From a virus, in IMG/VR virus record IMGVR_UViG_3300008117_000088, positions 32,031 to 96,030 of that record: 64,000 nucleotides of DNA; one strand, 5' to 3'. Made by a program: the position numbers and the translations under genes. Below the pieces are notes generated by a model that made no database searches, was not told where the DNA came from, and saw nothing but the letters and a program-made list of their open reading frames with translations. Each line of letters starts with the position of its first letter. The first letter of the stretch is position 1. Positions 27,438 to 62,618 of this stretch are shown here, in pieces.

Positions 27438-28388
27438 TCAGAGGATTCCTCCGTAATATAAAGTAATTCCCATTAAAATTATCGGAATTACTAAAGCAAA
27501 GATGGCTTTGTAGTAGTCCTTAAGAGGAGTTCTAAAGTAACTTTTACCAACTACTAAACATTTATGGGCTGGGGACAGCATGTAGCCAGCGTAGTCAAAA
27601 GCAAAGAATAGTGGCAAAGTTTCAACGCCAAATACCCCTACAGAAAGTACAACAAAACCAGCAAACTTACTACTGCTTCCTAGAGCAAAACTGGCTAGAA
27701 AACCGGTAGCAGCAACTAAAAATAGTAGATTGTGTTGATGAGCGTCTTCTAACCACGCATTAATAGTTTCTATATTTGCTTTAATAATGTTGCTAAGAAC
27801 AATAACAATTGCCGTAAATACCAAAACTCTAGCGTAATCTATTAGCTGTTTACGATCTCGTTTCCAGTCGGCTTCAATTTGCCAAGGCTCTTTGTCTTTC
27901 TTTTTTAAAGGTTTTTCTGGAATTGATATCTCAATATCGTCTTCTTTTAAAACCTTAAATATGTAGAACAAAATAACAATTCCCGCAGTAGCTAATAGCG
28001 GCCATGTTTTACCTAGAAGCTCCCAATAACTAAGGCTGAGAGCTGCCATAGGTAGTAAAACAGTTGCCTCTAGCGGAGACCAAAAATAAAAGTGATGCGT
28101 AGATAGATAATCAATAATTCCGTAGTTCTTACGTTTTTTATAATCATCTGGGGCAATAGTGTCTAGAGCACCTGCCGATACAGCGACGCGACCTGAAATC
28201 GGTAGTACGCCCGAGAACAGAGAGATAAGAGCAACAACTGCTCTTTTTGATTTTATAGTTGTGGCAATCCAAGCATAGAAGGGCATAAATATTTGGCTCT
28301 TCTTTGCCGCAAAGGACAAAGCCATAACTGAAGCAAGAAGTAGAAGGTATTGCTGATTATCCAGCAACAACGAGGATGTAAACTCCAT
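27438..28388 (-). CDS. multi-pass membrane protein, DUF401/permease-like
   Basis: 316 residues with about seven to eight hydrophobic segments (QQYLLLLASVMALSFAA, AVVALISLFSGVLPISG, LLATAGIVILFYIFKVL, ARVLVFTAIVIVLSN, FALVIPIILMGITLYYGG) and a charged cytoplasmic loop at about 145-180. The SPAHKCLVVGKSYF stretch near the end resembles the DUF401 integral membrane/permease family. Membrane transporters are rare in phages. It overlaps the upstream U32-methyltransferase gene by 32 nt, so the two are coupled. Substrate unknown. Confidence 0.7.
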   Translation of the reverse strand: MEFTSSLLLDNQQYLLLLASVMALSFAAKKSQIFMPFYAWIATTIKSKRAVVALISLFSGVLPISGRVAVSAGALDTIAPDDYKKRKNYGIIDYLSTHHFYFWSPLEATVLLPMAALSLSYWELLGKTWPLLATAGIVILFYIFKVLKEDDIEISIPEKPLKKKDKEPWQIEADWKRDRKQLIDYARVLVFTAIVIVLSNIIKANIETINAWLEDAHQHNLLFLVAATGFLASFALGSSSKFAGFVVLSVGVFGVETLPLFFAFDYAGYMLSPAHKCLVVGKSYFRTPLKDYYKAIFALVIPIILMGITLYYGGIL

Positions 28389-30000
28389 TCCACCATAACC
28401 TTTCGTTCTCGATACTGTTAAGTATCTTTTTAGAGTATACGGGTGTAAGACCCGCGGCTTTTACCGCGTCGTCTGCAGCCCGTACCGTATCTGTCCAATT
28501 CGCGTCATCGAACACCAGGATGGCCTGCTTGGCGAAGCAGTCCCTATAACGGGTCACGGTCTTATATATATGCTCGTACTCGTGAGGTCCATCATAGAAA
28601 AATAAATCTACATCTTTGATAGTAGACACATCAACTTCGTGCACATCTTCATTAATAATGTGCACCTTGTTGTTGCCGATATAAGGGGCTATATTCTTTT
28701 CAAATTCATTTTGATCATTTGGAGGCAGCTCGCCGTGTCGCTCTTCTACAGGCTGAAGGTCCTCTTCCCACATATCAATGAAATAGGCTTCGAGGTTATT
28801 GCCCGCTAAAGCAGCCGCACCGGTTGCGCCTAGATACGCTCCAACCTCAAGGTAAACCTTAGATTGTGAGGCTAAACCGTTTAAGAGCTGCTGAACTCTA
28901 CGGCTAGTCAAACCAGGAATGTCGATGTCCAGTTTTCTATTGACAGAGTCAACCAGCTCTCGGGTTACCACTAGGGTCCTGGGTTGGCGCTTATCTCCGT
29001 ACTTAGCTGCAACAATCTTGTCGCAGTATCCGCAGTCCCAGCAGTCAAATTTGCAAGTGCGAATTTTTTTACGCCAGATGTCTATAGGTTTATCTACCAA
29101 GTTAGTCTCTTCAATAAAATCTTTAAAATGGTCAAAAAGTATTTCTTTACCGGCTGCATAGTTTTTGATAATTTGCATAGTCTCTCTGAGACGAGACTTG
29201 GACTCTCTTCCATGCATCTTTATAACGTCTATGCCTAGATCGGTAAAAAAGTACTCCCAATCTTCACGCCATGGTGGGAAATTAGCTGTTTTTAAAGGCA
29301 CTGCTTGATCTTCGTATGTCCACTTCATACATGAAACGTGGCTAACAGGGTCGTGAAAATATTGTGGACCGTCTGTACGAGTGTTGTTAAATTGATAGTG
29401 CTCATCCATCATAGGGCATCCACCAAGACACCCCTCGTTGGCTAAAAGAGATAATTTAACTCCGTACTGTTCTTTAGCCTTTTTAAATCTCAGTAACTTT
29501 TCGTGATCTCTCATTAGATCTCGATCTAAGTTTATATAGTTAAACCCAGCCTTGGCTAAATGAGATATTTCTCTGGGTTCATTTACGTTTCTTAAAATAG
29601 TATTTTTAATAAAAATGCCGGGGAAAGCGTCTTGAATTTGACCCGTAGCTACCCAATGGGTGTGCGGAATAGTTACCGATTGTATGCCGGCATCATACAA
29701 AGGTTTAAAGTTTTGAATAAATAGATCTAAATTTTCTTGAGATGGGCGAACGTAAATATTGTTAAACACAGCAGATGCTGTAACCCCAGTAACTTCTTGT
29801 ATATATAGGGCAAGTTGATTTAGGTAATCCCAGTCTTCTTCACGACCGTTAAATACGTCCCCCATAGCGTCTTGAGTAAAAGGAGGAATGCGACAGGTAA
29901 AATAAAAATCATAAATATAAGGCTTATAGTCAATTAAAAAATTTATAAATTGTTCTGTCTCTGCTTCAGCCAATTTAGGGTTTAACGGAACGGTAAACAA
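28357..30000 (-). CDS. peptidase U32-like protein fused to SAM methyltransferase
   Basis: 547 residues. The N-terminal about 330 residues form a U32-like TIM barrel: IQSVTIPHTHWVA, ANEGCLGGCPMMDEHY, SCMKW and a Cys cluster CKFDCWDCGYC that could hold an Fe-S cluster. U32 proteins are mostly RNA- or cofactor-hydroxylating enzymes rather than proteases. The C-terminal 200 residues are a class I methyltransferase of the CmcI/Methyltransf_24 type: YLEVGAYLGATGAAALAG, YFIDMW, DLFFYDGPHEYEH, ILVFDDANW. The fusion is uncommon. Neighbours are a membrane protein and two unknown genes, all coupled. Confidence 0.75.
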   Translation of the reverse strand: MFTVPLNPKLAEAETEQFINFLIDYKPYIYDFYFTCRIPPFTQDAMGDVFNGREEDWDYLNQLALYIQEVTGVTASAVFNNIYVRPSQENLDLFIQNFKPLYDAGIQSVTIPHTHWVATGQIQDAFPGIFIKNTILRNVNEPREISHLAKAGFNYINLDRDLMRDHEKLLRFKKAKEQYGVKLSLLANEGCLGGCPMMDEHYQFNNTRTDGPQYFHDPVSHVSCMKWTYEDQAVPLKTANFPPWREDWEYFFTDLGIDVIKMHGRESKSRLRETMQIIKNYAAGKEILFDHFKDFIEETNLVDKPIDIWRKKIRTCKFDCWDCGYCDKIVAAKYGDKRQPRTLVVTRELVDSVNRKLDIDIPGLTSRRVQQLLNGLASQSKVYLEVGAYLGATGAAALAGNNLEAYFIDMWEEDLQPVEERHGELPPNDQNEFEKNIAPYIGNNKVHIINEDVHEVDVSTIKDVDLFFYDGPHEYEHIYKTVTRYRDCFAKQAILVFDDANWTDTVRAADDAVKAAGLTPVYSKKILNSIENERLWWNGVYILVVAG

Positions 30001-31201: not shown

Positions 31202-32152
31202 TTAGTCACGCCAAGCACATGCGCCGGAAGAGCGCCCGCTAATACCCGATCCTCTCGGTTGCATTGTAGAACTGCCTTCAAATCCTGAATCTGTGGAATA
31301 GTTCCATCTCCAAGCACGGTTATTTTGAGCTCCGTCAAACATACCTAGCATGTAGGCATGTGCCTGACCCATGTCTAGATTTTCTTCCCCAGAGTTAGCA
31401 ATAGGTTTGCTGTGGTTAGAAACAACACTATCCGTAGCATAGTTCCATTTACGAAACGCGTTTCCTCCGTTATACGATCCCTCGTTGCCGGCCCAACCAA
31501 AACCAATTTTAGAACTATGTCCTTTTTGTTGGTGATGGTTTGCCGCAGAAGCCACGCCAGATTGAGCTTCGGTAGCATAAGTAAACTTTGTTGTTGTCCC
31601 TGAACCATTCCAAACATAGCCGTAGTTTTCACCATAGTGGTGTCCAGCGTTAGAATCGTTTAGCGCAGAGGACCCAATAGTTCCTGCAAAACCCTCAGTA
31701 GCAAGGTTAAACTTTGAAATTGTAGTGCTATTGCCAAATACATACGCCATCATTCCAAAACCGGTAACTGGATCTGAGGACTGCATACCTTCAGAGTCGT
31801 CATAGGTTTGGGGCATAGAGAAATCTCCAGTGTTTACGTTAGTTCTCATGTTGTATGAGGAAGCGGTTGAATAGCCTCCCATACCGCCAGTGTTCCAAAC
31901 AAAGTGACGGTTTGCGTTGTGACTTGACCCAATATACCCTCCAGCAGATGAAATCAAGTTACCCTGATCTACTGCAGAGTCTGTGGAGTGTTGAATATAG
32001 TTAACGTTAGTCCAAGGCTGGCTATTAATATAGCCACCTACAAGATACCCGCGGGTAATCACCTGTCGTAAAAGAAAACTCTTAACGCCTCTTGAACGAC
32101 CGCCAATTACTCCGGTACCACCACCGCGACTAGTAAGGTTAAAAAAGGGCAT
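31202..32152 (-). CDS. repetitive beta-propeller-like adhesin/tail protein
   Basis: 316 residues. Several blocks of about 40-50 residues repeat around Trp/Tyr-Asn-Tyr-Ala-Thr-Asp/Glu motifs: HFVWNTGGMGGYST, ISKFNLATEGFAG, YVWNGSGTTTKFTYATEAQS, FRKWNYATDSVVSN, WRWNYSTDSGFEG. The regular beta-blade spacing suggests a propeller, as in some phage decoration or fibre-tip proteins. The N-terminus (TSRGGGTGVIGGRSRGVKSF) may be its attachment segment. Directly follows the 1200-residue fibre gene, so it is probably its tip. Confidence 0.65.
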   Translation of the reverse strand: MPFFNLTSRGGGTGVIGGRSRGVKSFLLRQVITRGYLVGGYINSQPWTNVNYIQHSTDSAVDQGNLISSAGGYIGSSHNANRHFVWNTGGMGGYSTASSYNMRTNVNTGDFSMPQTYDDSEGMQSSDPVTGFGMMAYVFGNSTTISKFNLATEGFAGTIGSSALNDSNAGHHYGENYGYVWNGSGTTTKFTYATEAQSGVASAANHHQQKGHSSKIGFGWAGNEGSYNGGNAFRKWNYATDSVVSNHSKPIANSGEENLDMGQAHAYMLGMFDGAQNNRAWRWNYSTDSGFEGSSTMQPRGSGISGRSSGACAWRD

Positions 32153-49966: not shown

Positions 49967-49987
49967 CTTACTATTGTCCAAGAGCCT

Positions 49988-50017
49988 TTGGTCTTTGTCT
50001 TTGCATGCTGGTATACT
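49988..50017 (+). promoter_or_regulatory. promoter of leaderless type for oxygenase gene
   Basis: TTGGTC (49988-49993) and TATACT (50012-50017) with an 18-nt spacer; the -10 is preceded by TGG (extended). Only 7 nt (TTTGAGC) separate the -10 from the ATG at 50025, so the transcript would start at or next to the start codon; no Shine-Dalgarno is present. Leaderless mRNAs are common in Actinobacteria. Confidence 0.6.
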
Positions 50018-50024
50018 TTTGAGC

Positions 50025-50765
50025 ATGAAAGTTACTACTTATGACTCTCCTCACCTTAGGATTATTGAGGATTTTGTCCCTAAGGAAGAGTGCGATTGGT
50101 TTATAGACTACGTAACAGAAAAGAATCTTTGGGCCTTCAATAACGCTAAAAGAGAGGCTTTCCCAGACGGCAGAGACTATGAGCTGGTGTCCAAGCAGTG
50201 GGATAACCGAAAGGTAGAGTTCAACAGTCTCTACAACACTAGAAGCCATCCAGAGCTTTTTAAGAGGGCTTACCCAATCATGAAGTCCGCTAAAGAACAG
50301 GTGGCTGATTTCTTTAATGTAACGCAAGACTCTTTTCAACTAGAGAGTTGGGAAGCGGTTCGTTGGTATCCGCCTTTTCATCAAGGTCCTCATATTGACT
50401 ACATAGACCCAGACTTTGATCGATCCAAACTTCCAGCAGATTTTGATTCTTCCTTCTTTACGGCAGACGAAGAGGCTTTGTACAGACGACATTGCACTAC
50501 AAAAAACTACACTGGCATGATTTACATGAATGATGACTTTGAGGGTGGGGAATTATATTTTCCTTATCACAATAACTTTGAGATTAAACCAAAGCCAGGA
50601 ATGCTTGTAATGTTTAGCGGTCACATTATGAATCCACACGGAATTAGACCAATAACAAGCGGTACTAGGTATGTTCACACCACATTCTGGTGCAAGCGTC
50701 CTCAACCAGGTTGGGAAGTTGGATATCTAGATAATTCTGGAAAACTAGACAAGTTCTGGGAATAG
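50025..50765 (+). CDS. 2OG-Fe(II) oxygenase, prolyl-4-hydroxylase-like (plus strand)
   Basis: 246 residues from the ATG at 50025. Metal ligands are H123 and D125 (GPHIDYIDP) and H205 (NPHGI), with R215 (SGTRY) to hold 2OG. GMIYMNDDFEGGELYFPYHN is the family-defining jelly-roll strand. The extended acidic loop (about 128-160) could be substrate-binding. It would hydroxylate a protein side chain (often Pro) using O2 and 2OG. Three further oxygenases lie at 52741, 53313 and 54860 on the opposite strand; this one has its own leaderless promoter and its end overlaps the convergent fucosyltransferase-like gene by 21 nt. Confidence 0.85.
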   Translation: MKVTTYDSPHLRIIEDFVPKEECDWFIDYVTEKNLWAFNNAKREAFPDGRDYELVSKQWDNRKVEFNSLYNTRSHPELFKRAYPIMKSAKEQVADFFNVTQDSFQLESWEAVRWYPPFHQGPHIDYIDPDFDRSKLPADFDSSFFTADEEALYRRHCTTKNYTGMIYMNDDFEGGELYFPYHNNFEIKPKPGMLVMFSGHIMNPHGIRPITSGTRYVHTTFWCKRPQPGWEVGYLDNSGKLDKFWE

Positions 50766-51818
50766 TTTAGATTCGGGCCATTCCCGCCACCAGTGGACGT
50801 CCCACTCATGCAAAACAGATGTGTAGTTCATCTTTTTGTTTTCTTCTGCTGATCTAAGCTCAGGAAACTTATACCCGTTCCATGTGTATGGACCAGTTTG
50901 CTCATATGGCATCTCTCCAAACAACCTCATGTTTCCCCCTACATGTCGTTGTATATAACCTGTAAACGTACTTCCTTGAGTACCTATAAAGTCTTTTGCA
51001 TGGCACATTACTAGGTTAGATATTAATCCTAAAGTTACTTCGTCTGTAAATTTTAATTCTTGAAACTCTTTAGAAAATTCTTTTTCTATGTAGTTCTCTA
51101 ATACCAATGCTCCGGTGTTTAGCACAGTTTTGCTCCACGGGTCATCTGTAGCCACCACTACTGGATACCCGGGTGTTAAGGTAGCTATGCCTTCCATAAC
51201 CTGTTCTTCAGTAGCGTAATCAAATCTATGGTCTGTTCTTCTTATATGAGCGCCTACAAAGTCTCCTAAGCTGTCAGCAATCATTTTGGCAAACTGTTGA
51301 TACTCCGGCTTAAACTTTGTTAAAGAAAGGGCTTTTTCTACCTCCGGAGTTCGGTTCATAAAAAATACAGAGTACCAACCAAGAGTCCATTTAAAACTAT
51401 AGTGATCTATAAATTCAGGCATAAACTTTCTTTTACCAGCGCAAAACTTATCTTCATTAAAAGCATTGTCAGAAAAATTATAAAAATACTGAGTAAAGAC
51501 ATTTGCTTCTATATTCAACTCTTTATCAAGGTATTCAACTTCTCCATACGGATGTACATCTATTAAATCTGTGATTCTTGGGGTTAAGTCGTTATTTACA
51601 AACTTTCTTTTGTTGTACCAACGATTTGCCGAGTAAATGCCAATACCCTTTTCAATATCAGAACTCCAAGGCTTGTTAAAGATATGATGAATTAAAAGGT
51701 CTTTTTTTAAAAAATGAGAAAGTGCTACAGCATTTTCTATACAAGTTACTTGGTTAAAAAGACCGCAAGGGTTATGCAGTTTAAATACTATCCGGTCTTT
51801 ACTAGGCTTGATATCCAC
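50745..51818 (-). CDS. O-fucosyltransferase-like glycosyltransferase
   Basis: 357 residues. The HIRRTDHRF motif (191-199) is the nucleotide-binding signature of the GDP-fucose transferase superfamily (POFUT/FUT8-like GT-B). The N-terminal GLFNQVTCIENAVALSHFL and late FIGTQGSTFTGYIQRHV also fit. It would transfer a deoxy or epimerised hexose from a GDP-sugar. The next gene encodes a GDP-mannose 3,5-epimerase-like enzyme, which gives GDP-sugars of this class (31-nt overlap). The acceptor is unknown; Thr-rich fibres are candidates. Confidence 0.72.
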   Translation of the reverse strand: MDIKPSKDRIVFKLHNPCGLFNQVTCIENAVALSHFLKKDLLIHHIFNKPWSSDIEKGIGIYSANRWYNKRKFVNNDLTPRITDLIDVHPYGEVEYLDKELNIEANVFTQYFYNFSDNAFNEDKFCAGKRKFMPEFIDHYSFKWTLGWYSVFFMNRTPEVEKALSLTKFKPEYQQFAKMIADSLGDFVGAHIRRTDHRFDYATEEQVMEGIATLTPGYPVVVATDDPWSKTVLNTGALVLENYIEKEFSKEFQELKFTDEVTLGLISNLVMCHAKDFIGTQGSTFTGYIQRHVGGNMRLFGEMPYEQTGPYTWNGYKFPELRSAEENKKMNYTSVLHEWDVHWWREWPESKLFPELV

Positions 51819-52744
51819 CTGTAGGTCTCCTCTAAGCCACCTCTTAAATCCTCTTTAGGAGCCTCACCTAAAATAAACTTAATAAGTTCATTGTCTGAGG
51901 TTCTAGCCCTAACGCCAGTTGGACCCTCTATGTGAACTTTAGATAAGTTTTTTCCAGCAATATCGCAAACAATATCCACCAAAGTGTTAATAGAAACAGT
52001 TTCTGTGGATCCTATGTTTATAGGGTGTAGATAATCTTTTTCTCTGTAAAACTCTTTCGTAAACTTAATGCATTCATCTATGTATAAGAATGAGCGTAGT
52101 TGCTCTCCATCCCCCCATACTTCAATAGACTCAGTTGCTTCCGCTACTTTTCTACAAATAGCTGCGGGAGCTTTTTCTTTGCCTCCACGCCAAGTTCCGT
52201 AAGGACCAAATACATTGTGGTATCTGCCAACTTTGTTTTTCATGCCATAATCTTTATTATAGGAAAGATACAAGCGCTCGCTAAATAATTTTTCCCAACC
52301 GTATTCAGTATCAGGGTTTGCGGGGTATGCTGTAAGTTCTTGGCAAGTAAAGTCATCTAGATTAAGTTGATTGTGCTCTGGGTATACGCAAGCTGATGAA
52401 GAAAAGAAAATACTTTTTATGCCTTTTTGCTCTGCTCTTTTTAAAACATTGATATTTATAAGCGCAGAGTTAGATAGTATAGAAGCGTCGTTATTAGCAC
52501 TAATGTACCCAATACCGCCCATATCAGCAGCTAGTTGATAGACCTCATCAAAAGTTTTATCAATTACTTTATCAACTTGTTCTTGAGACCTTAGATCACC
52601 AATAATAAAATCATCAGCAAAAGTGCTCCAGTGTTCTGGGTAATGAAGGTCTGCTCCTCTAACCCAAAATCCTTCTTCTTTTAAACTCTTTACTAGGTGG
52701 CTTCCAATAAATCCGCCAGCACCCATAACGAGTGCTGTCTTCAT
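51788..52744 (-). CDS. GDP-mannose 3,5-epimerase-like enzyme
   Basis: 318 residues of the extended SDR fold. Rossmann GAGGFIG (8-14), the LAADMGGIGYI motif, SSSACVYPE (115-123), YGWEK (148-152), and GRYHNVFGPYGTWRGGKEK then APAAICRK. Compared with plant GDP-mannose 3,5-epimerase, the catalytic Cys and Lys fall at C119 and K191 (constant offset of 26 from C145/K217). It should convert GDP-mannose to GDP-L-galactose or GDP-L-gulose. Phage versions are uncommon. It overlaps the glycosyltransferase (31 nt) and the upstream oxygenase (4 nt). GDP-fucose synthase is the nearest alternative. Confidence 0.82.
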   Translation of the reverse strand: MKTALVMGAGGFIGSHLVKSLKEEGFWVRGADLHYPEHWSTFADDFIIGDLRSQEQVDKVIDKTFDEVYQLAADMGGIGYISANNDASILSNSALININVLKRAEQKGIKSIFFSSSACVYPEHNQLNLDDFTCQELTAYPANPDTEYGWEKLFSERLYLSYNKDYGMKNKVGRYHNVFGPYGTWRGGKEKAPAAICRKVAEATESIEVWGDGEQLRSFLYIDECIKFTKEFYREKDYLHPINIGSTETVSINTLVDIVCDIAGKNLSKVHIEGPTGVRARTSDNELIKFILGEAPKEDLRGGLEETYRWISSLVKTG

Positions 52745-53325
52745 TGATTTGCTGTGGACTTAGCCCATTGAGCTTCAGACCACTCCCCAGTAACAACCTT
52801 TAAATAATCAGGTCCTTTAGTAAAGTACCAATGATCTGGCTCAGCATAATGAAAGAACACTACGCCAACAAAGTTCTTTTCTGGGTCGGGAAATGGACCA
52901 CGCCAATGCTCTTGATCGTTTCCATAATAAGCAACAGCCTCATTTGGCTCAGTAAAGTATTCAACGTCTTCTACAAAAAGACCCCAGTTAGTATCGTAGT
53001 AAACGCACATATCAATTGTGTAAGTGCAAGCATTGTTATCTTTATGCTTCCAAAGTTTTGCTCCAGCGCCTTCATATCTGCAAAACAAAGTGTAGGTATG
53101 TAGCAATGTTTCGCTGTTAAATGTCTGCCGAGCTAAAGGAACGCTTCTTTCAGCGTACTCGCTAAGGATTGGAGAGTCGTAGTGACTTAGGGCGTATCTT
53201 CCAAAGTCTGGGTGGTTTTGCACGCTGGTATCAACACGCAGCATTGTGTCCCTAAACTTAGCAAATTCCGGATCAGGAAATACATTTCTTAGTATTTGAG
53301 GGGCTGGTCTTACTATCGCATCCAT
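52741..53325 (-). CDS. 2OG-Fe(II) oxygenase-like protein (divergent)
   Basis: 194 residues. H94-x-D96 (LWKHKDN) and H140 (DQEHWRGPF) with R142 give a double-stranded beta helix 2OG site, though in a different sequence frame from its neighbours. FCRYEGAGAKLWKHKD and CVYYDTNWGLFVEDVEYFTE are the beta strands. The VVFFHYAEPDHWYFTKG stretch closes the fold. Fold resemblance is fair; activity is inferred. Overlaps the next oxygenase by 13 nt. Confidence 0.68.
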   Translation of the reverse strand: MDAIVRPAPQILRNVFPDPEFAKFRDTMLRVDTSVQNHPDFGRYALSHYDSPILSEYAERSVPLARQTFNSETLLHTYTLFCRYEGAGAKLWKHKDNNACTYTIDMCVYYDTNWGLFVEDVEYFTEPNEAVAYYGNDQEHWRGPFPDPEKNFVGVVFFHYAEPDHWYFTKGPDYLKVVTGEWSEAQWAKSTANQ

Positions 53326-53924
53326 TGAACCACCGCATATCTTGTACCAGAAGTTACTGGGTACACCTTGTGTGAATAAACATAGGTAGAAGGGAAGAGG
53401 AGAAGATTTCCCTTCTCAGGTTTGATTTTAATATCAAACTGATCAAACTCAATTTCGCCACCCTCATAAGCATCATTTGCGTAATACGTTAATGATACGC
53501 GACGTGGGAAGCGCCAATGATCGTCCATATGACGATCAAACTTTTGTCCAACTCCGTACTTAAGGATTTGATAGGAGTCATAACTTCTAATATCTACGCC
53601 AAAAAAGTTTAAGTACTCTGTTAGAGGGTCATGAAAAGCATCTCTAAAAGTACATCCCAAACCGTACTCCATTAAGAAACGAGAAGATGTGGTTTCTGGG
53701 TCTGGAGCAGGGGAGTCTTTAGGAGGCATAGGCGCACCTAAACTAAAAGTATCTCTAATGTACTTGTTCTCTGATCCATCGTTTTTTGCATCAGCTACCT
53801 GAGCAGATGCCCAAGTTAAAATACCAGACTCTACGGTGTACTCAAGGTCTTGCATGAGAGTTTCACCTTCTGGAAGAACGTTTTCAAATATAACGATTCC
53901 TGGAGCAACAAAATTTAATGCCAT
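53313..53924 (-). CDS. 2OG-Fe(II) oxygenase, prolyl-4-hydroxylase-like
   Basis: 203 residues from the ATG at 53924, which overlaps the upstream stop as TAATG and has GGGAG nearby; the longer frame to 54008 runs into the zinc-protein gene. H132, D134 (DRHMDDHWR), H185 (YSHKVYPV) and R195 (TSGTRY) form the site; YEGGEIEFDQFDIKIKP and GNLLLFPSTYVYSH are the P4H strands. Closely similar to 54860..55408 (YEGGEIVF, LLVFPSNYAYRHEV), so the two are paralogues. Confidence 0.85.
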   Translation of the reverse strand: MALNFVAPGIVIFENVLPEGETLMQDLEYTVESGILTWASAQVADAKNDGSENKYIRDTFSLGAPMPPKDSPAPDPETTSSRFLMEYGLGCTFRDAFHDPLTEYLNFFGVDIRSYDSYQILKYGVGQKFDRHMDDHWRFPRRVSLTYYANDAYEGGEIEFDQFDIKIKPEKGNLLLFPSTYVYSHKVYPVTSGTRYAVVQWMR

Positions 53925-54142
53925 TAGACAGCTCCCCATTTTCCTACCGGACATGATGCCGGTGCTAATTTTGTTTTTAGATGCATAAGGCACCCACACT
54001 TTTTGCATTGCTTTGTGAACTTAATTAAGTGCTCACAGCCAAGGCATATATCCATACGAGACTTTTTTACCTCGTCAGATACGTGCATTACATTGGGGTT
54101 AACTAAATCCCACGGCTTTACCGACCGTTGTTCCTCAGACAT
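53924..54142 (-). CDS. small zinc-ribbon protein (DUF6171-like)
   Basis: 72 residues: CLGCEHLIKFTKQCKKCGCL and, after HLKTKLAPAS, CPVGKWG. The CxxC...CxxCxC...C pattern with a closing CPxGKW is a phage family often encoded beside 2OG oxygenase genes in T4-like phages (DUF6171-like, from memory). Likely a cofactor or metal-handling partner. Overlaps the upstream paralogue gene by 8 nt. Confidence 0.7.
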   Translation of the reverse strand: MSEEQRSVKPWDLVNPNVMHVSDEVKKSRMDICLGCEHLIKFTKQCKKCGCLMHLKTKLAPASCPVGKWGAV

Positions 54143-54872
54143 CTGTTTCTCCTTCAGTTGTCTCTAATTTTACACTATTTTCAATCCTGTACTTTTTACG
54201 CTCCCAAAGATTGTCTCTATAGAAGTCGCTTTTTACAGACCTAAATTTAATCGCTCTTTTGAGGTTTCTTCCAATTTGAGCCTCGTTACCGTAGATAGGG
54301 GTGGCGTTCCAGTCTTCTCTTCGAAACGGCAATACCTGAACGTAAGGGGTTCCCTTAGGCACTAGACCAGAAAAGCCTTTACGAATAAAAAACGGAATCA
54401 TTCCAGGGGTATTCATTTTGTCATTGTCTATCACCCCAGAAGTGACCAGAAACGGCAAGTCAAACCTATTAAAGGGGGTAGTGTAAAGAGCGCTAAAGCC
54501 AGGCTCTAACTCAACTCCCCACTCCGGTAAGAATGAAAAATGATCTTCGTAATAGCCTTCAGGATGATGGAAGTTTGGCAACGGGTCTCTTAGCCCAATA
54601 AAGTCTTGAAAGTTAGGGTCTTCTATCTTTGCCACTATACGATTATCAGCAATATCAAACATAACATCACACGGGGTTTTAAAGATATACCCAGAAGTCA
54701 TGGCATCAAAAAATGGAACACAGTTTCTAAATGTGCTATTCCCATCCTCATGATACCTATTTGTGTCTTTGTACCAGGCCGGCAAAGATTTAGCAGCTAC
54801 CTCAGGAGGATTTCCTACATTTTCCCATCTAGCAGCAACAAAATATATATTTTTCTTATCTAGTTCCACCAC
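54135..54872 (-). CDS. DUF6065-like protein, paralogue 2
   Basis: 245 residues with a GTG start. Paralogue of 26731..27417 (shared motifs: PxWYK, NCVPFFDAMTSGY, PFNRFDLPF, MIPFFIRKGFSGLVPKGTPY). The end is basic (RKKYRIENSVKLETTEGETD). It is placed among oxygenases and a GDP-sugar enzyme. A cupin-like beta sandwich is plausible but unproven. Confidence 0.7.
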   Translation of the reverse strand: MVELDKKNIYFVAARWENVGNPPEVAAKSLPAWYKDTNRYHEDGNSTFRNCVPFFDAMTSGYIFKTPCDVMFDIADNRIVAKIEDPNFQDFIGLRDPLPNFHHPEGYYEDHFSFLPEWGVELEPGFSALYTTPFNRFDLPFLVTSGVIDNDKMNTPGMIPFFIRKGFSGLVPKGTPYVQVLPFRREDWNATPIYGNEAQIGRNLKRAIKFRSVKSDFYRDNLWERKKYRIENSVKLETTEGETDV

Positions 54873-55408
54873 TGCACCATAGCATAACGAGTTCCTGCGG
54901 TTACCGGCTGAACCTCATGCCTGTAGGCGTAGTTAGACGGAAACACTAAAAGTTGATGCGCTTTTGGTTTAACCGCCACATCAAAGTTAGTAAATACTAT
55001 TTCTCCACCCTCGTAATCATCATTCACGTAGTACGAGTAGGAAACTCTTCTAGGTCTACGGGGAGAGTCGTCTATGTGCGGAGTAAAGAACTGACCTATC
55101 CCATACTTTAGTAGTTGCACTCCCTCTTGGGTATGGTCTAAAGATATTCGATAGTAATCACAGTACTCAGAGATTAGTGGGGAAAGGGCCGTTGTAATCT
55201 CGTTGTATAGCGAGTGAACTCTTTTTATAGGGTTAGACGCATCTTCTGGAAGCTCAAAGTTTGGAAGACCGATAAGTTGAACATCCCGGTATTTAGTGTC
55301 TACTAAAGGGCCTTTATCAGTATTTAAAGTGCCTGATCCCCAACGTAGATCGGTGGTTAATGTCTTCTCTTCTAAATCTTTAATAAACTCAGTCGATTGA
55401 GGCCACAC
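54860..55408 (-). CDS. 2OG-Fe(II) oxygenase, prolyl-4-hydroxylase-like
   Basis: 182 residues with a GTG start at 55408, inside the end of the Hint-protein gene. H111, D113 (TPHIDDSPR), H164 (AYRHEVQP) and R174 (AGTRY). YYVNDDYEGGEIVFTNFDVA and LLVFPSNYAYRH are P4H strands, close to 53313..53924. It overlaps the preceding Hint-protein gene by 37 nt and the next by 13 nt. Likely substrates are Pro-Thr or Gly-Pro-Thr repeats encoded nearby (inference). Confidence 0.85.
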   Translation of the reverse strand: MWPQSTEFIKDLEEKTLTTDLRWGSGTLNTDKGPLVDTKYRDVQLIGLPNFELPEDASNPIKRVHSLYNEITTALSPLISEYCDYYRISLDHTQEGVQLLKYGIGQFFTPHIDDSPRRPRRVSYSYYVNDDYEGGEIVFTNFDVAVKPKAHQLLVFPSNYAYRHEVQPVTAGTRYAMVQWWN

Positions 55409-56667
55409 ATCACTGTATAAATGTGAACCAAAGCGGACTCTCCGTCTGCTAGGAACAGGGTGTCTCCCGGAATAAGTGAAGCAACTGTGAAGAACTCGTA
55501 AACGCCATCTCGTAGTGCAAGGATTGGGTGGAACTCAGAGAACTTGTTAGCTACATCAGAGTTGAAGTAGGCAACCTTCTGGTGGACAGACTGAACCTTG
55601 TTTATAACCTTTGCAGTTGCATAAGATTCCATAGTCAAGGTTGAGGTGTTCCACTCGTACAAGTTCCAATCAGGTAGATTTTCATCTAGTTCTGTGAACT
55701 TAGGTACAACTAGCGTGTCGCCAATCTGAACATCACGAGATGCTACCCACGTAATAACTCCGTCTTGGAGTGTTAGTACTGGAGTATCTCCCTGTACGCA
55801 AGGGACTCCAACGCCGTAGTAAGGATCTACGTAACGTACTGGAGTTGGGGTAGGTGTAGGTGTTGGAGCCACAGGTGTAGGTGTAGGTGTAGGTGTAGGC
55901 GTTGATGTACAAGTATTAACAATGTCGTAGTCAGGGCATCCTACGTTAGTGATACAACGTAGTCGGTATCCGCTTTGACCTGCTGGACATGAAGGCTCTG
56001 TAGTTCCATAAACGCAAGTTGAGCAGTCCAAAGTTGGTGTAGGAGTTGGGGTAGGTGTTGGGGTTGGTGTAGGTGTAGGAGTTGGCGTTGGTGTAGGAGC
56101 AACAGGCGTTGGTGTAGGTGAGCAGTTTGTAGACTGGCAAGCAGGGAAATCACCAGATGTAAAGATACATTGACGTGAGTAACCAGTTCCTGACGCGTTG
56201 TCTTGGAATCCTGGAGTTGTGTAAGAACAGTTACCTACACCACCGCATTGATAGCTCTCAGTACACTTCCACTGTGCAGTCGGTGCGACTGGCGTAGGTG
56301 TTGGAGTTGGAGTTGGTGTAGGAGTAGGAGTTGGTGTAGGTGTTACAGTATTTGCAATACAGTCTCCATAGATGTTTGGACATCCTTGTGGAGTAATGCA
56401 ATATGTTCGAGTTCCAGCCGCGCCAGTGCCTGTTGTACAAGCTTCGGTTCCTGATCCGTAAGGGCAACATGATCCATCGCAAGGACCAGACGCTGTAGAA
56501 CAGCCAACTGGAGTTGGTGTAGGAGTAGGAGTTGGCGTTGGAGTTGGGGTAGGTGTTGGAGTTGGAGTTGGTGCTACAGGTGTTGGAGTTGGAGTAAATA
56601 CTGGAGTTGGAGTTGGTGTTGGTGTTGGTGCAACTGGAGTTGGAGTAGGAGTTGCACAGTACGCCAT
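55372..56667 (-). CDS. Pro-Thr repeat/Cys-rich protein with C-terminal Hint domain
   Basis: 431 residues. (PT)n linkers alternate with three Cys-rich modules of about 45-60 residues (CSTASGPCDGSCC..., WKCTESYQCGGVGNCSY..., CSTCVYGTTEPSC...), which look like secreted disulphide-bonded domains. From C290 onward is a Hint fold: CVQGDTPVLTLQDG, ASRDVQIGDTLVVP, then SEFHPILALRDG. The Cys nucleophile, the 'GDTL' turn and the 'FHPI' histidine are the core of inteins, hedgehog proteins and bacterial Hint domains. The usual end motif is not obvious, so the splice or cleavage is uncertain. Start at 56667 after AGGAAACAC. Probably a surface or fibre protein that is processed. Confidence 0.75.
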   Translation of the reverse strand: MAYCATPTPTPVAPTPTPTPTPVFTPTPTPVAPTPTPTPTPTPTPTPTPTPTPVGCSTASGPCDGSCCPYGSGTEACTTGTGAAGTRTYCITPQGCPNIYGDCIANTVTPTPTPTPTPTPTPTPTPVAPTAQWKCTESYQCGGVGNCSYTTPGFQDNASGTGYSRQCIFTSGDFPACQSTNCSPTPTPVAPTPTPTPTPTPTPTPTPTPTPTLDCSTCVYGTTEPSCPAGQSGYRLRCITNVGCPDYDIVNTCTSTPTPTPTPTPVAPTPTPTPTPVRYVDPYYGVGVPCVQGDTPVLTLQDGVITWVASRDVQIGDTLVVPKFTELDENLPDWNLYEWNTSTLTMESYATAKVINKVQSVHQKVAYFNSDVANKFSEFHPILALRDGVYEFFTVASLIPGDTLFLADGESALVHIYTVMCGLNRLSLLKI

Positions 56668-56798
56668 GTGTTTCCTATTTTTACGTAAGAGTTAGTGACG
56701 GTACGCCAAGTATTGCCTATCTTGACTTGACCGCAATCATTAGCTTGATCAGCTGTTACGGTACGCCAAGTGCCGTCAACTTTTACGTATAACGCCAT
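56574..56798 (-). CDS. small (V/K)xGxTWRTV-repeat protein, overlapping the Hint gene frame
   Basis: 74 residues. The first 48 residues carry three copies of a VKVDGTWRTV, VKIGNTWRTV, YVKIGNTWRTV unit, also seen in phage tail proteins. The frame then runs into the Pro-Thr repeat DNA in another frame, giving a Leu/Gln-rich tail (LLLQLQLHQHQH) that is unlikely to be functional. The next gene begins 131 nt into this one. An undetected frameshift could join the WRTV repeats to the Hint protein. It is directly coupled to the 47-residue gene upstream. Confidence 0.5.
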   Translation of the reverse strand: MALYVKVDGTWRTVTADQANDCGQVKIGNTWRTVTNSYVKIGNTWRTVQLLLQLQLHQHQHQLQLQYLLQLQHL

Positions 56799-58177: not shown

Positions 58178-58684
58178 TTACTTGACCTTGATTACTTTGG
58201 GCTTTTCCTCTTCGGGAACTTCACGTTCCACCTTGATGGTCAATAGCCCGTCTTTAAGGGTAGCCTCTTTAACTTCCATCCACTCCCCAAGCACGAACCT
58301 TTGAGTCCATAGACGCTTGGCGATTCCTTGATGAAGAACCTCTTCGCCTTTGTCCTCTTCTTTTTCAACGCTTTTAACGATGAGCAGGTCTTTTTCTACA
58401 GTTACTTCAATGTCTTCTTTCTTGTACCCAGCCAGGGCGATTTCCACTGTGTAATGGTCATCATCCACTTTGATTAGGTTGTAGGGTGGAAAGGTCGTTG
58501 TCTTATATGAGGTCAACGTGTTCCAACGATTGATTTGATCTTGAAACCCTAAGAAGAATTGAGCGCTGAGTAAATCAGCAAGGGTTTGAGGTTTTACTGT
58601 AGTTGTTGGGAGTTTCGAGTATTCGTACTTATCCCATTGCTTGTGCTTATGTGGTTCCCAAGAATTTGGGTAGCCTGATGCCAT
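58178..58684 (-). CDS. small heat-shock protein (Hsp20/alpha-crystallin)
   Basis: 168 residues from the ATG at 58684 with AAGGAGTG upstream. The alpha-crystallin domain spans about residues 68-160: NLIKVDDDHYTVEIALAGYK, KEDIEVTVEKDLLIVKS, KRLWTQRFVLGEWMEVKEAT and LKDGLLTIKVEREVPE. It ends KPKVIKVK (I-x-V-like motif for oligomer docking). Hsp20 is known in cyanophages and may help folding of virion proteins. Host-derived IbpA-type genes are the alternative origin. Confidence 0.9.
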   Translation of the reverse strand: MASGYPNSWEPHKHKQWDKYEYSKLPTTTVKPQTLADLLSAQFFLGFQDQINRWNTLTSYKTTTFPPYNLIKVDDDHYTVEIALAGYKKEDIEVTVEKDLLIVKSVEKEEDKGEEVLHQGIAKRLWTQRFVLGEWMEVKEATLKDGLLTIKVEREVPEEEKPKVIKVK

Positions 58685-58715
58685 AATAATCACTCCTTAG
58701 ACATGATTAGTTAAT

Positions 58716-59917: not shown

Positions 59918-60084
59918 TCCTCGTCCTTGGGGTTGCGAAGTGGGTAAGTCACCGCCCATGCTAAGGTCGTAGCGATAATTGCGTATCCAACAACCGTTCT
60001 AGCACTTCCGTCGAGGACCACCCAGGCTACAAACATACCTAATAGGGTCCATAACTGCTCGACAAAGTCTCTTAATATCTTCAT
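59914..60084 (-). CDS. small two-helix membrane protein (holin candidate)
   Basis: 56 residues: KILRDFVEQLWTLLGMFVAW, VVLDGSARTVVGYAIIATTL and AWAVTYPLRNPKDEE. Two transmembrane helices separated by a short turn, like class II/III holins. Its stop overlaps the lipoprotein start (ATGA). Confidence 0.68.
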   Translation of the reverse strand: MKILRDFVEQLWTLLGMFVAWVVLDGSARTVVGYAIIATTLAWAVTYPLRNPKDEE

Positions 60085-62618
60085 GGTTTCCTTCTCCTAA
60101 CTGCTTTTGCGTCTCCTGTAGGCGCTCCGCCCCCAGATCCACCGGTGTTACCGGTAGAAGATTGTGTGGCTGCTAGAGCGGCCGATGCGGCTGCTTGAAC
60201 AGCAATTTGACCAACTATTACCGATGCAACAATGACTTTCTCAGACTCTTCACGTTCTGCTTCAGTCATATCTGCGCCTATGTTAGATAGCGCAGTTAAT
60301 ACCTGTCCGGGATCCGAAAATAGTTCACCGAGTAGTTCTGCCGGGTTATCAAGCAAAACTAGTGCAGCAGCAACCTCTGCAGTAATAATAACTGCATTTC
60401 CTTCTTCATCAGTCCTAACCTCAACAGGGGTCTCTGGTGGAAGATCTTCATATGACAAACCTGCTTCCGCTATTGCTTCTGCAGTAACTGGTTCTCCGTC
60501 AGATTGTTCAAGTAGTTGGCTAACCAATTCTTCTTTAGGTGTATTATCTGGGGATGATTCTTCCAACTGATTTTGTGGCTCTTGTGTGTCTGGTTGTTGC
60601 TGTTCTGATTCTTCAAAAGGGGGTTCAGCCGAAGACTCGTCGCTTTCGTCAGTTCCTTCGTTCTCTGTGGGTTGTGACGTCTCTTCTGTGGGCTGTTGCT
60701 CTTCTTCTGTGGGTGAATCAGTAGATGAGTCTGTCGGTTGATCTGTGGAAGCTTCGTCAGGATCTTGAGGACTCTCTGGCTCGACTGGAGTGTCTGAAGG
60801 AGTGTCATCTGCAGGAACGTCCTGGGATTCTTCTTCCGAGTTTTGTGAATCCTCTTGAGCAGGTTCTTCAACAGGCTCTTGAGGAGATTCCGTTTCTTCA
60901 GAAGGGTTTTCAGGAAGAGGTTCGACCGGCGGTTCAACAGGCGATTCAGGCAATGATGGAGGATCCACAGGTGCAGGTTCTGATGGAGCGCTTGGCTCAG
61001 GCTGAGGCTGAGGAGCGGGCTCAGGAGTTGGATTGGTTGGCGCAGGGTCGACTGACGGATTTGTAGGAGTTACAGGTGAAGGTTCGGGTTGTGGTTCTGG
61101 CTGTGGTTGCGGCTGTGGTGTTGGCTCTGGTTGCGGTGCGGGAGTTGGCTCAGGCGTTGGAGTCGGCTGAGGTTGAGGCTGAGGAGTAGGTTCAGGTGTC
61201 GGAGTTGGTTCTGGGGTTGGTGTTGGGGTTGGTTCTGGCTGCGGTGCTGGTGTTGGTTCTGGTGTGGGCTGTGGTTCGGGCGTGGGAGTCGGAGTGGGCT
61301 CAGGTGTTGGGGCAGGTGAAGGCTCAGGAGTTGGCTGAGGAGTGGGAGTTGGCTCAGGTTGAGGAGTAGGCTCTGGCGTTGGAGTTGGTTCTGGAGCAGG
61401 TGGTGGAGTAGGTTCTACAACTGGTTCAGGAGTTAACTCAATAGGAGCCGTAACTTGAGTAACGCCAGCTTGTTCAAGAGTAACAATAGATCCGTCTTGT
61501 AGTCGCGCTCCGGTGCGCTCGTTACCAGCTAAAGGTCCATCTACAGAGTATGTGTAAGAGACAGTTCCATCTGTAAGAATTTGTCCAGTAATAACAATTG
61601 TCGTAGTGTCGCCAGTCATAACTCCATAAGGGCGATAGGAGCCATCTACTTGAAAGCCTCCATCGCTGGTTCTAATGATGAAGTGCGTATCTGGCATGTG
61701 ATTAGGAAGTGCCCACCAGTCTTTAGACTCAATAGAGATAGACGGAGTGTTTGGATAAGTCCAATAAGTTCCATCAGGATTACCGAAGGTGATTACTGAA
61801 TTGGTTGTAGCATATACATCTGCATACGTCACTCCGTTAAACACGACAGTGGTTGTAAGTGGAATTCTATAAGACATGTCGTCTCCGCCTGGAGTTACTG
61901 TTTCAGTAACAACTGGCGCTGGTTCAGGTGTGGAGGTAGTTAATGCTGGAGTCTGTGTGGGAGATGTTGTTGTACTTGTTTGCGTTTCTGTCTGGGTGGA
62001 TTGTTGGTTGGATCCAGACTCGGGAGCCGTTGTTACGGAAGGTGAAGGCTCTGGAGTCGGTGTTGAACTTGGACTCGGTTCAGAAGATGGAGCGGATTCT
62101 GATGTTGGAAGAGGAGTTGCGCTGGTCGAAGGCGAAGGTTCAGGCGCAGCAGTCGGACTTGGATCGGATGCAGAAGAAGTTGTTGGTTGGGGGGATGGAG
62201 GCGCCTCAGTGGAATATGTCGTATTGGAAGATTGAGGGTCCGAAGTTGCAGCAGAAGGTTCTGCAGTTGGAGTCGGAGTTGGAGTCGCTTCGCTCGAAGA
62301 CTCTGTGGAAGGAGTAGGTGATGGAGCAGGCGCTGTGGTTTCTGTTTGGTTTGGGGTTGGGGTTGGCTCTGGACTTTGTGTTGGTGAAGGTGATGCTTCG
62401 ACCGGTGCTGGAGAGGTTGAAGGCTCTGGAGTCGGAGAAGTAGATGGCTCTGGATTTTGTGTGGTCTGCTGGCTTGTTTCTGATGTGGTTGTTGACGCTT
62501 CCCCTTCAGCGTAAGCAGGGGAAATCACAAGAAGAACATAAATAAGGCAGAAACCTGCAACGAAGTAAAGTTTATTTATTAAACCAGATAGTGCTGCGAA
62601 TGTACGCAGTATTGGCAT
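60081..62618 (-). CDS. large secreted Pro/Thr/Glu-rich surface protein
   Basis: 845 residues. An N-terminal signal peptide (LYFVAGFCLIYVLLVISPAYA, about residues 17-37) leads a Ser/Thr/Pro-rich stretch (to about 245). A globular beta-rich domain follows (about 248-385; SYRIPLTTTVVFNGVTYADV, WWALPNHMPDTHFIIRTSDG, SVDGPLAGNERTGAR). Then come Pro-Glu/Pro-Thr repeats (about 395-560), an acidic Pro/Glu/Ser linker (about 560-695) and a hydrophobic helical end (EVAAALVLLDNPAELLGELF, VIVASVIVGQIAVQAAASAA). The linkers look like cell-wall spanning stalks. No enzyme motif is seen. It is the longest non-structural gene here; it may alter the host surface (superinfection block) or be part of a wall-anchored lysis device. 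Confidence 0.75.
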   Translation of the reverse strand: MPILRTFAALSGLINKLYFVAGFCLIYVLLVISPAYAEGEASTTTSETSQQTTQNPEPSTSPTPEPSTSPAPVEASPSPTQSPEPTPTPNQTETTAPAPSPTPSTESSSEATPTPTPTAEPSAATSDPQSSNTTYSTEAPPSPQPTTSSASDPSPTAAPEPSPSTSATPLPTSESAPSSEPSPSSTPTPEPSPSVTTAPESGSNQQSTQTETQTSTTTSPTQTPALTTSTPEPAPVVTETVTPGGDDMSYRIPLTTTVVFNGVTYADVYATTNSVITFGNPDGTYWTYPNTPSISIESKDWWALPNHMPDTHFIIRTSDGGFQVDGSYRPYGVMTGDTTTIVITGQILTDGTVSYTYSVDGPLAGNERTGARLQDGSIVTLEQAGVTQVTAPIELTPEPVVEPTPPPAPEPTPTPEPTPQPEPTPTPQPTPEPSPAPTPEPTPTPTPEPQPTPEPTPAPQPEPTPTPTPEPTPTPEPTPQPQPQPTPTPEPTPAPQPEPTPQPQPQPEPQPEPSPVTPTNPSVDPAPTNPTPEPAPQPQPEPSAPSEPAPVDPPSLPESPVEPPVEPLPENPSEETESPQEPVEEPAQEDSQNSEEESQDVPADDTPSDTPVEPESPQDPDEASTDQPTDSSTDSPTEEEQQPTEETSQPTENEGTDESDESSAEPPFEESEQQQPDTQEPQNQLEESSPDNTPKEELVSQLLEQSDGEPVTAEAIAEAGLSYEDLPPETPVEVRTDEEGNAVIITAEVAAALVLLDNPAELLGELFSDPGQVLTALSNIGADMTEAEREESEKVIVASVIVGQIAVQAAASAALAATQSSTGNTGGSGGGAPTGDAKAVRRRKP

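Follow-up and report, generated by a model that had tools for sequence, protein, structure and literature searches.

A predicted self-processing Hint domain at the C-terminus of a putative virion stalk protein in uncultured phages

The features used to classify bacterial intein-like (BIL) domains are summarised in a review (PMC7765530), which describes A-type BILs as unable to ligate their flanks, although a paper cited there is titled as showing splicing. Among phage tail-fibre proteins, the S74 autopeptidases act by Ser/Lys chemistry (PMC7824862). A literature search, with most subscription journals outside its reach, did not turn up any publication describing C-terminal Hints of phage tails. 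Here we describe a gene in a 64,000-nucleotide stretch of viral DNA (the window; positions 32,031 to 96,030 of IMG/VR record IMGVR_UViG_3300008117_000088). In its intact form, this gene probably encodes a virion-associated, tail-fibre-like stalk, the last ~160 residues of which form a mini-intein-like Hint, similar to A-type BILs, that would process and detach itself.

The window copy and the intact gene

A previous sequence-only reading had assigned a Cys-rich, Pro-Thr-linked protein with a C-terminal Hint domain to ORF 55372-56667 (-). This ORF exists and encodes 431 aa with Cys at residue 290. Its translation confirmed the GDT and FHPI motifs (as GDTP/IGDTL and FHPIL) and the three Cys-rich modules (aa 55-103, 133-182, and 214-253) with Pro-Thr linkers between them, P or T making up 36% of its residues. 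However, its coordinates do not bound the gene. The sole near-identical contig found, IMGVR_UViG_3300031857_011529 (L001), matches the window at 99.9% identity across 6,050 bp and, past a 149-bp gap, at 99.1% across 4,184 bp. At the same place, L001 has a single 505-aa gene in one frame (L001:2780-4297; MALYVKVDGTWRTV...VKIGNTWRTVCEPVPTPTP), which was overlooked in the earlier reading. This gene runs from three (V)KxGxTWRTV repeats through a Pro-Thr stalk and three Cys modules to a complete C-terminal Hint, the C-terminal end of which reads ...DAYNFSVENIDLVVAGRYVTHNK before the stop codon and closes as ...VVIESINWVNGVTDAYNFSVENIDLVVAGRYVTHNK-stop.

The window differs from L001 by three gaps. 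A 25-bp gap near 56655, where the Pro-Thr tract begins, separates the N-terminus from the rest, and the ATG of the L001 gene is in the window the start of a separate 74-aa frame (56574-56798). The 149-bp gap, with its junction at ~55425, takes out intein blocks F and G together with the terminal His-Asn and the beginning of the next gene, leaving the window Hint without the last quarter of the domain. The third gap is 6 bp and in-frame. The features of the locus are as follows.

56656..56798 (-): true N-terminus, ATG plus three (V)KxGxTWRTV repeats, from the L001 frame; cut off by the 25-bp gap, the window frame continuing as 56574-56798
55909..56655 (-): Pro-Thr stalk with three Cys-rich modules (56359-56505, 56122-56271, and 55909-56028), from the translation
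55426..55800 (-): Hint remnant from Cys290 (block A) to residue 414, with block B SEFH (His380) and without blocks F and G, from alignment to L001 and the family
55798..55800 (-): codon of Cys290 (Cys344 in the intact protein), the predicted nucleophile of an N-S acyl shift; 10 of 13 clusters have Cys here
55375..55425 (-): 17 out-of-frame residues (415-431) after the 149-bp gap, where L001 instead runs on as PVVIESINWVNGVTDAYNFSVENIDLVVAGRYVTHNK-stop
54860..55408 (-): 2OG-Fe(II) oxygenase, the next gene, with its ATG and first codons inside the 149-bp gap; it encodes 206 aa in L001 and, from a GTG start, 182 aa in the window

The C-terminal 142 residues of the window ORF, which had been proposed as the Hint to express in a cleavage assay, are therefore not the whole domain. 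Blocks F and G and His-Asn are deleted, out-of-frame residues stand in their place, and the segment is a broken test construct, because the C-terminal catalytic half is missing from the window copy. The junction sequence of the 149-bp deletion had no match in the other viral contigs searched, and the intact sequence across this site was matched in one viral contig, namely that of L001. The broken copy may have arisen naturally or through misassembly; provided that its two gaps are real, the protein it encodes should be inactive. A single metagenome contig may present a broken copy as if it were the gene.

Hint fold, catalytic residues, and selection

The window protein gave zero matches to Pfam profiles, and searches with the window ORF alone against Pfam, PHROG, and PDB sequences returned chance or marginal matches only (metallo-beta-lactamase IMP, E1-E2 ATPase, Sdh5, and a baseplate-hub PHROG, all discarded). 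A Hint_2 search over the window's own record also found none. Comparison with Hint profiles, a check suggested earlier, thus missed the window protein itself in Pfam and succeeded for its family. A profile of the phage family matched the PDB sequences of BIL2 (6.7e-9, the best E) and the C. thermocellum BIL (2e-8), and six of eight members matched Pfam Intein_splicing, three Pfam Hint, and four the intein C-terminus TIGR01443; Pfam cut-offs miss most of these phage C-terminal Hints. Structure prediction, the other check suggested, divided in the same way. The intact L001 Hint, modelled by AF2 with eight family members, had a pLDDT of 83.5 and a pTM of 0.80, and Foldseek against the PDB returned Hint proteins throughout the 50 matches listed, with BIL2 of Tetrahymena BUBL1, the C. 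thermocellum BIL, inteins, and hedgehog (1at0) as best matches (probability 1.00). By contrast, the truncated window Hint, with more homologues supplied, reached a pLDDT of 56.9 and a pTM of 0.46 and did not give a confident Hint fold. Foldseek against a viral library matched uncultured-phage proteins with FnIII or Hint names, and such proteins are therefore already present in databases. We conclude that the C-terminal part of the window protein is a true Hint relative and not a chance resemblance.

A first profile scan, built from jumbo-phage sequences, found three loci only, and TerL-based retrieval was used instead; alignment A3 was too divergent for use as a scan profile. C-terminal Hints were located by a Hint profile in many contigs of the window's phage group. 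At a 60% identity cut-off, the domains form 13 divergent clusters; nine belong to the window's group of uncultured, presumably freshwater myoviruses and the other four to jumbo phages. Ten of the 13 clusters have Cys1, 12 have the block-B His, all 13 have the block-F Asp, and the penultimate (G-block) His and the Asn each occur in 12. The earlier placement of C290 at the nucleophile position was borne out: Cys344 and His434 of L001, the nucleophile and block-B His, correspond to Cys290 and His380 in the window. The terminal His-Asn of L001 (H503-N504) was lost from the window copy with the deletion.

These domains could be functionless today, as dead intein remnants or selfish modules that a hypervariable phage gene has acquired at its end. 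Changed or lost catalytic residues in three members are consistent with such decay and count against an A-type-BIL-like activity. NCTB_135 (BN7874_135; L002:8465-8947), a stand-alone Hint-like protein that adjoins an intact Hint protein, has lost Cys1 and block-B His; in L110:4094-5068, where an (FFPP)n linker precedes the domain, Ser1 and a terminal His-Asp-Ser replace Cys and His-Asn; and in the L023 Hint the Cys is shifted and YN stands at the end. The broken window copy and several Hint-less sister stalks at the equivalent position point the same way. However, the catalytic residues are retained across clusters that are only about 20-30% identical. Moreover, in one well-sampled subgroup, Ka/Ks was 0.03-0.11 for the Hint and 0.18-0.38 for the attached stalk (near-identical pair L050/L106 excluded), a contrast that is more trustworthy than its values because synonymous sites are near saturation in most pairs. 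These ratios indicate strong purifying selection on the Hint domain in relatives, and we regard a dead remnant as very unlikely. In the Hint of L031:2954-3937, the block-B region has given way to a 49-bp stretch identical to the N-terminal repeat of that gene (IKENGSWRIAAKRVPN), by recombination or misassembly.

The sequence after His-Asn is 1-11 aa long in all 13 clusters. The sequence-only reading had also likened the protein to polymorphic toxins, in which a pre-toxin Hint frees a C-terminal toxin. The NCTB Hint does match PT-HINT weakly (E 1.3e-4, under the cut-off), but every member carries only the short tail after its Hint, and the next genes are metabolic or glycosyltransferase-like. 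This anatomy contradicts a toxin reading, which we find scarcely credible and have dropped.

Tails begin with K, F, L, Y, or A in 11 of the 13 clusters and with Cys in none; the Erwinia/Dickeya cluster begins with Thr and the L110 cluster with Ser. Tails observed after HN include K, FKL, FKM, IKLAAI, LR.., YK.., and YR.. (L018, L044, L069, L076, L091, L092, L094, and others). Of the 12 tails tabulated from the window's phage group, 11 have Lys or Arg at position +1 or +2, which suggests selection on the tail itself. Such selection would fit a reaction in which the short tail (K, FKL, YRPP...) is freed as the Asn cyclises and the tail amine then attacks the Cys1 thioester, joining stalk and tail. 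A-type BILs have been reported to splice without a +1 nucleophile, and His-Asn is kept almost everywhere. However, the benefit of 1-11 added residues is obscure, flank ligation by A-type BILs is denied in PMC7765530, basic C-termini are commonplace, and the clusters share common ancestry. We consider such splicing quite improbable.

Stalks, genomic slot, and neighbouring genes

By its terminase, the window falls in a large group of uncultured phages with Streptomyces phage BRock as a distant relative (terminase 54%), and relatives such as BRock suggest that this is a freshwater group with actinobacterial hosts. No Hint was found in the 62.6-112.5 kb region of BRock, and tblastn confirmed no relatives of the L018 Hint in bacterial or archaeal genome contigs. 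The Hint genes of this group share a single hypervariable slot, flanked on one side by a short tail-like gene (g111 or g158) and on the other by a cassette comprising sugar, 2OG-oxygenase, and CxxC genes; in many relatives the tail-fibre-like gene g158 lies directly upstream. The stalks vary, with VKVNGVWK repeats, FnIII, several kinds of Pro-rich linker, and Cys modules. One Hint subgroup occurs on both VKVNG (L018/L091) and FnIII-like (L092/L094) stalks; therefore, the Hint is a shuffled module. In L016, L045, L046, L070, L071, L074, L086, and L088, the same slot holds a similar stalk that ends without a Hint, and the linkers and Cys modules of these sister stalks are of the same kind as in the window stalk. 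The jumbo phages NCTB, Erwinia, and Dickeya have an equivalent arrangement on collagen-like tail proteins, and these homologues carry tail-protein annotations. PHROG 38766 ("virion structural protein") was assigned to seven of eight Hint members. Thus, annotation and gene order point to a virion-associated stalk protein, a context that upholds this much of the surface protein proposed earlier; the lipid or glycan attachment proposed with it is possible but unsupported.

Several other genes of the window were noted. An Hsp20-like small heat-shock protein gene lies at 58178-58693, with homologues in the same relative place in L018 and L091. The ORF at 60081-62618 encodes a Pro/Thr/Ser/Glu-rich protein of 845 aa that is hydrophobic in an N-terminal segment and basic at its C-terminus. 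At 28357-30000, a 547-aa protein has a mid-protein Cys-rich stretch (CKFDCWDCGYC) and a methyltransferase-like C-terminal part, and its gene adjoins that of a membrane protein (27438-28388). The cassette itself (49974-55408) holds several 2OG-Fe(II) oxygenase genes, an O-FucT-like gene (50745-51818), an NAD epimerase gene (51788-52744), and a gene for a small CxxC protein.

Modification of the stalk by this cassette, as hydroxyproline or O-glycan, is conceivable beside a (PT)n protein. The specific link between hydroxylases and Hint that had been drawn earlier was dropped: 2OG-oxygenase genes adjoin 7 of the 13 Hint-encoding loci, and the other six, some on short contigs, show none. The 2OG and fucosyltransferase-like neighbours belong to the cassette and not to the Hint. 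This inconsistent linkage also weighs against a hedgehog-like conjugation, in which an external nucleophile (a virion protein amine or hydroxyl, a glycan, or a lipid) would attack the Cys1 thioester, so that the stalk becomes attached and the Hint leaves. Thioester formation is a general ability of Hint domains, the residues before Cys1 are Gly-rich and unhindered in several clusters (GGGC), the top structural matches are BIL2 of the BUBL1 locus with hedgehog 1at0 also listed, and the window cassette has the O-FucT-like protein (E 1.5e-5, under the Pfam cut-off) and the epimerase. On the other side, a sterol-recognition-like extension after the Hint is absent, and His-Asn is retained, in contrast to hedgehog. 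We hold conjugation to be unlikely, and give a slim chance to its fuller form, in which a Cys-rich, possibly hydroxylated and fucosylated stalk is joined covalently through its thioester to a virion or host-surface molecule as a phage analogue of hedgehog lipidation.

Predicted processing and comparison with known systems

We favour a self-detaching Hint as the more probable account. Once folding is done, Cys1 would attack the preceding peptide bond in an N-S acyl shift assisted by block-B His. Resolution of the thioester, most simply by water, would then release the Hint and leave the stalk with a new free C-terminus; alternatively, the domain may activate the C-terminus of the stalk. Cyclisation of Asn504 could free the 1-11-residue tail. 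Splicing of a real C-extein is ruled out because there is no C-extein, and retention of His-Asn by such a C-terminal Hint is hard to explain by N-cleavage alone. Intein-derived, presumably autoprocessing domains are recurrent, optional, and selected C-terminal tips on stalk proteins of this abundant uncultured phage group. The novelty lies in this setting, an optional self-processing tip of phage stalks, and not in the domain.

By its sequence, the L001 domain has the testable features of an A-type BIL (PMC7765530). It shares with A-type BILs (2lwy and 6y75) the fold, Cys1, block-B His, C-terminal His-Asn, a non-Cys +1 residue, and hypervariable, non-conserved hosts. It differs in that it sits strictly at the C-terminus of phage stalks, followed by no more than 11 aa. 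Phage mini-inteins (gp41-1 and the Jerseyvirus helicase inteins, the latter ~33% identical to the L018 Hint) resemble it in the order of blocks A, B, F, and G and in length. In contrast to inteins, which have two exteins and a +1 nucleophile, the stalk Hint lies at the C-terminus with no C-extein beyond its short tail, lacks a +1 Cys (Ser or Thr in two clusters only), and is not hosted by a conserved enzyme. The NCTB and Erwinia/Dickeya tail proteins, like the L001 protein, are modular and repeat-rich virion proteins that end in a Hint and, past HN, a short tail; the former are collagen-like or long tail proteins as against Pro-Thr/Cys/FnIII stalks, and their domains are 22-31% identical to that of L001. 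The hedgehog Hog domain (1at0) shares the C-terminal position and the fold, whereas the phage proteins stop 1-11 aa past HN, have no sterol-recognition-like region, and keep the Asn. PT-HINT proteins have a toxin domain C-terminal to the Hint, where the phage proteins have only the short tail.

The proposed likeness to the S74 autopeptidase tail-fibre chaperones (PMC7824862) is that of a self-removing C-terminal domain on low-complexity tail proteins, through unrelated chemistry. The Hint may play a similar role, as a disposable tip that matures a low-complexity stalk or times its assembly. If it cleaves, it would provide a second chemistry for self-removing phage tail tips beside S74, and possibly a natural protein-conjugation tool.
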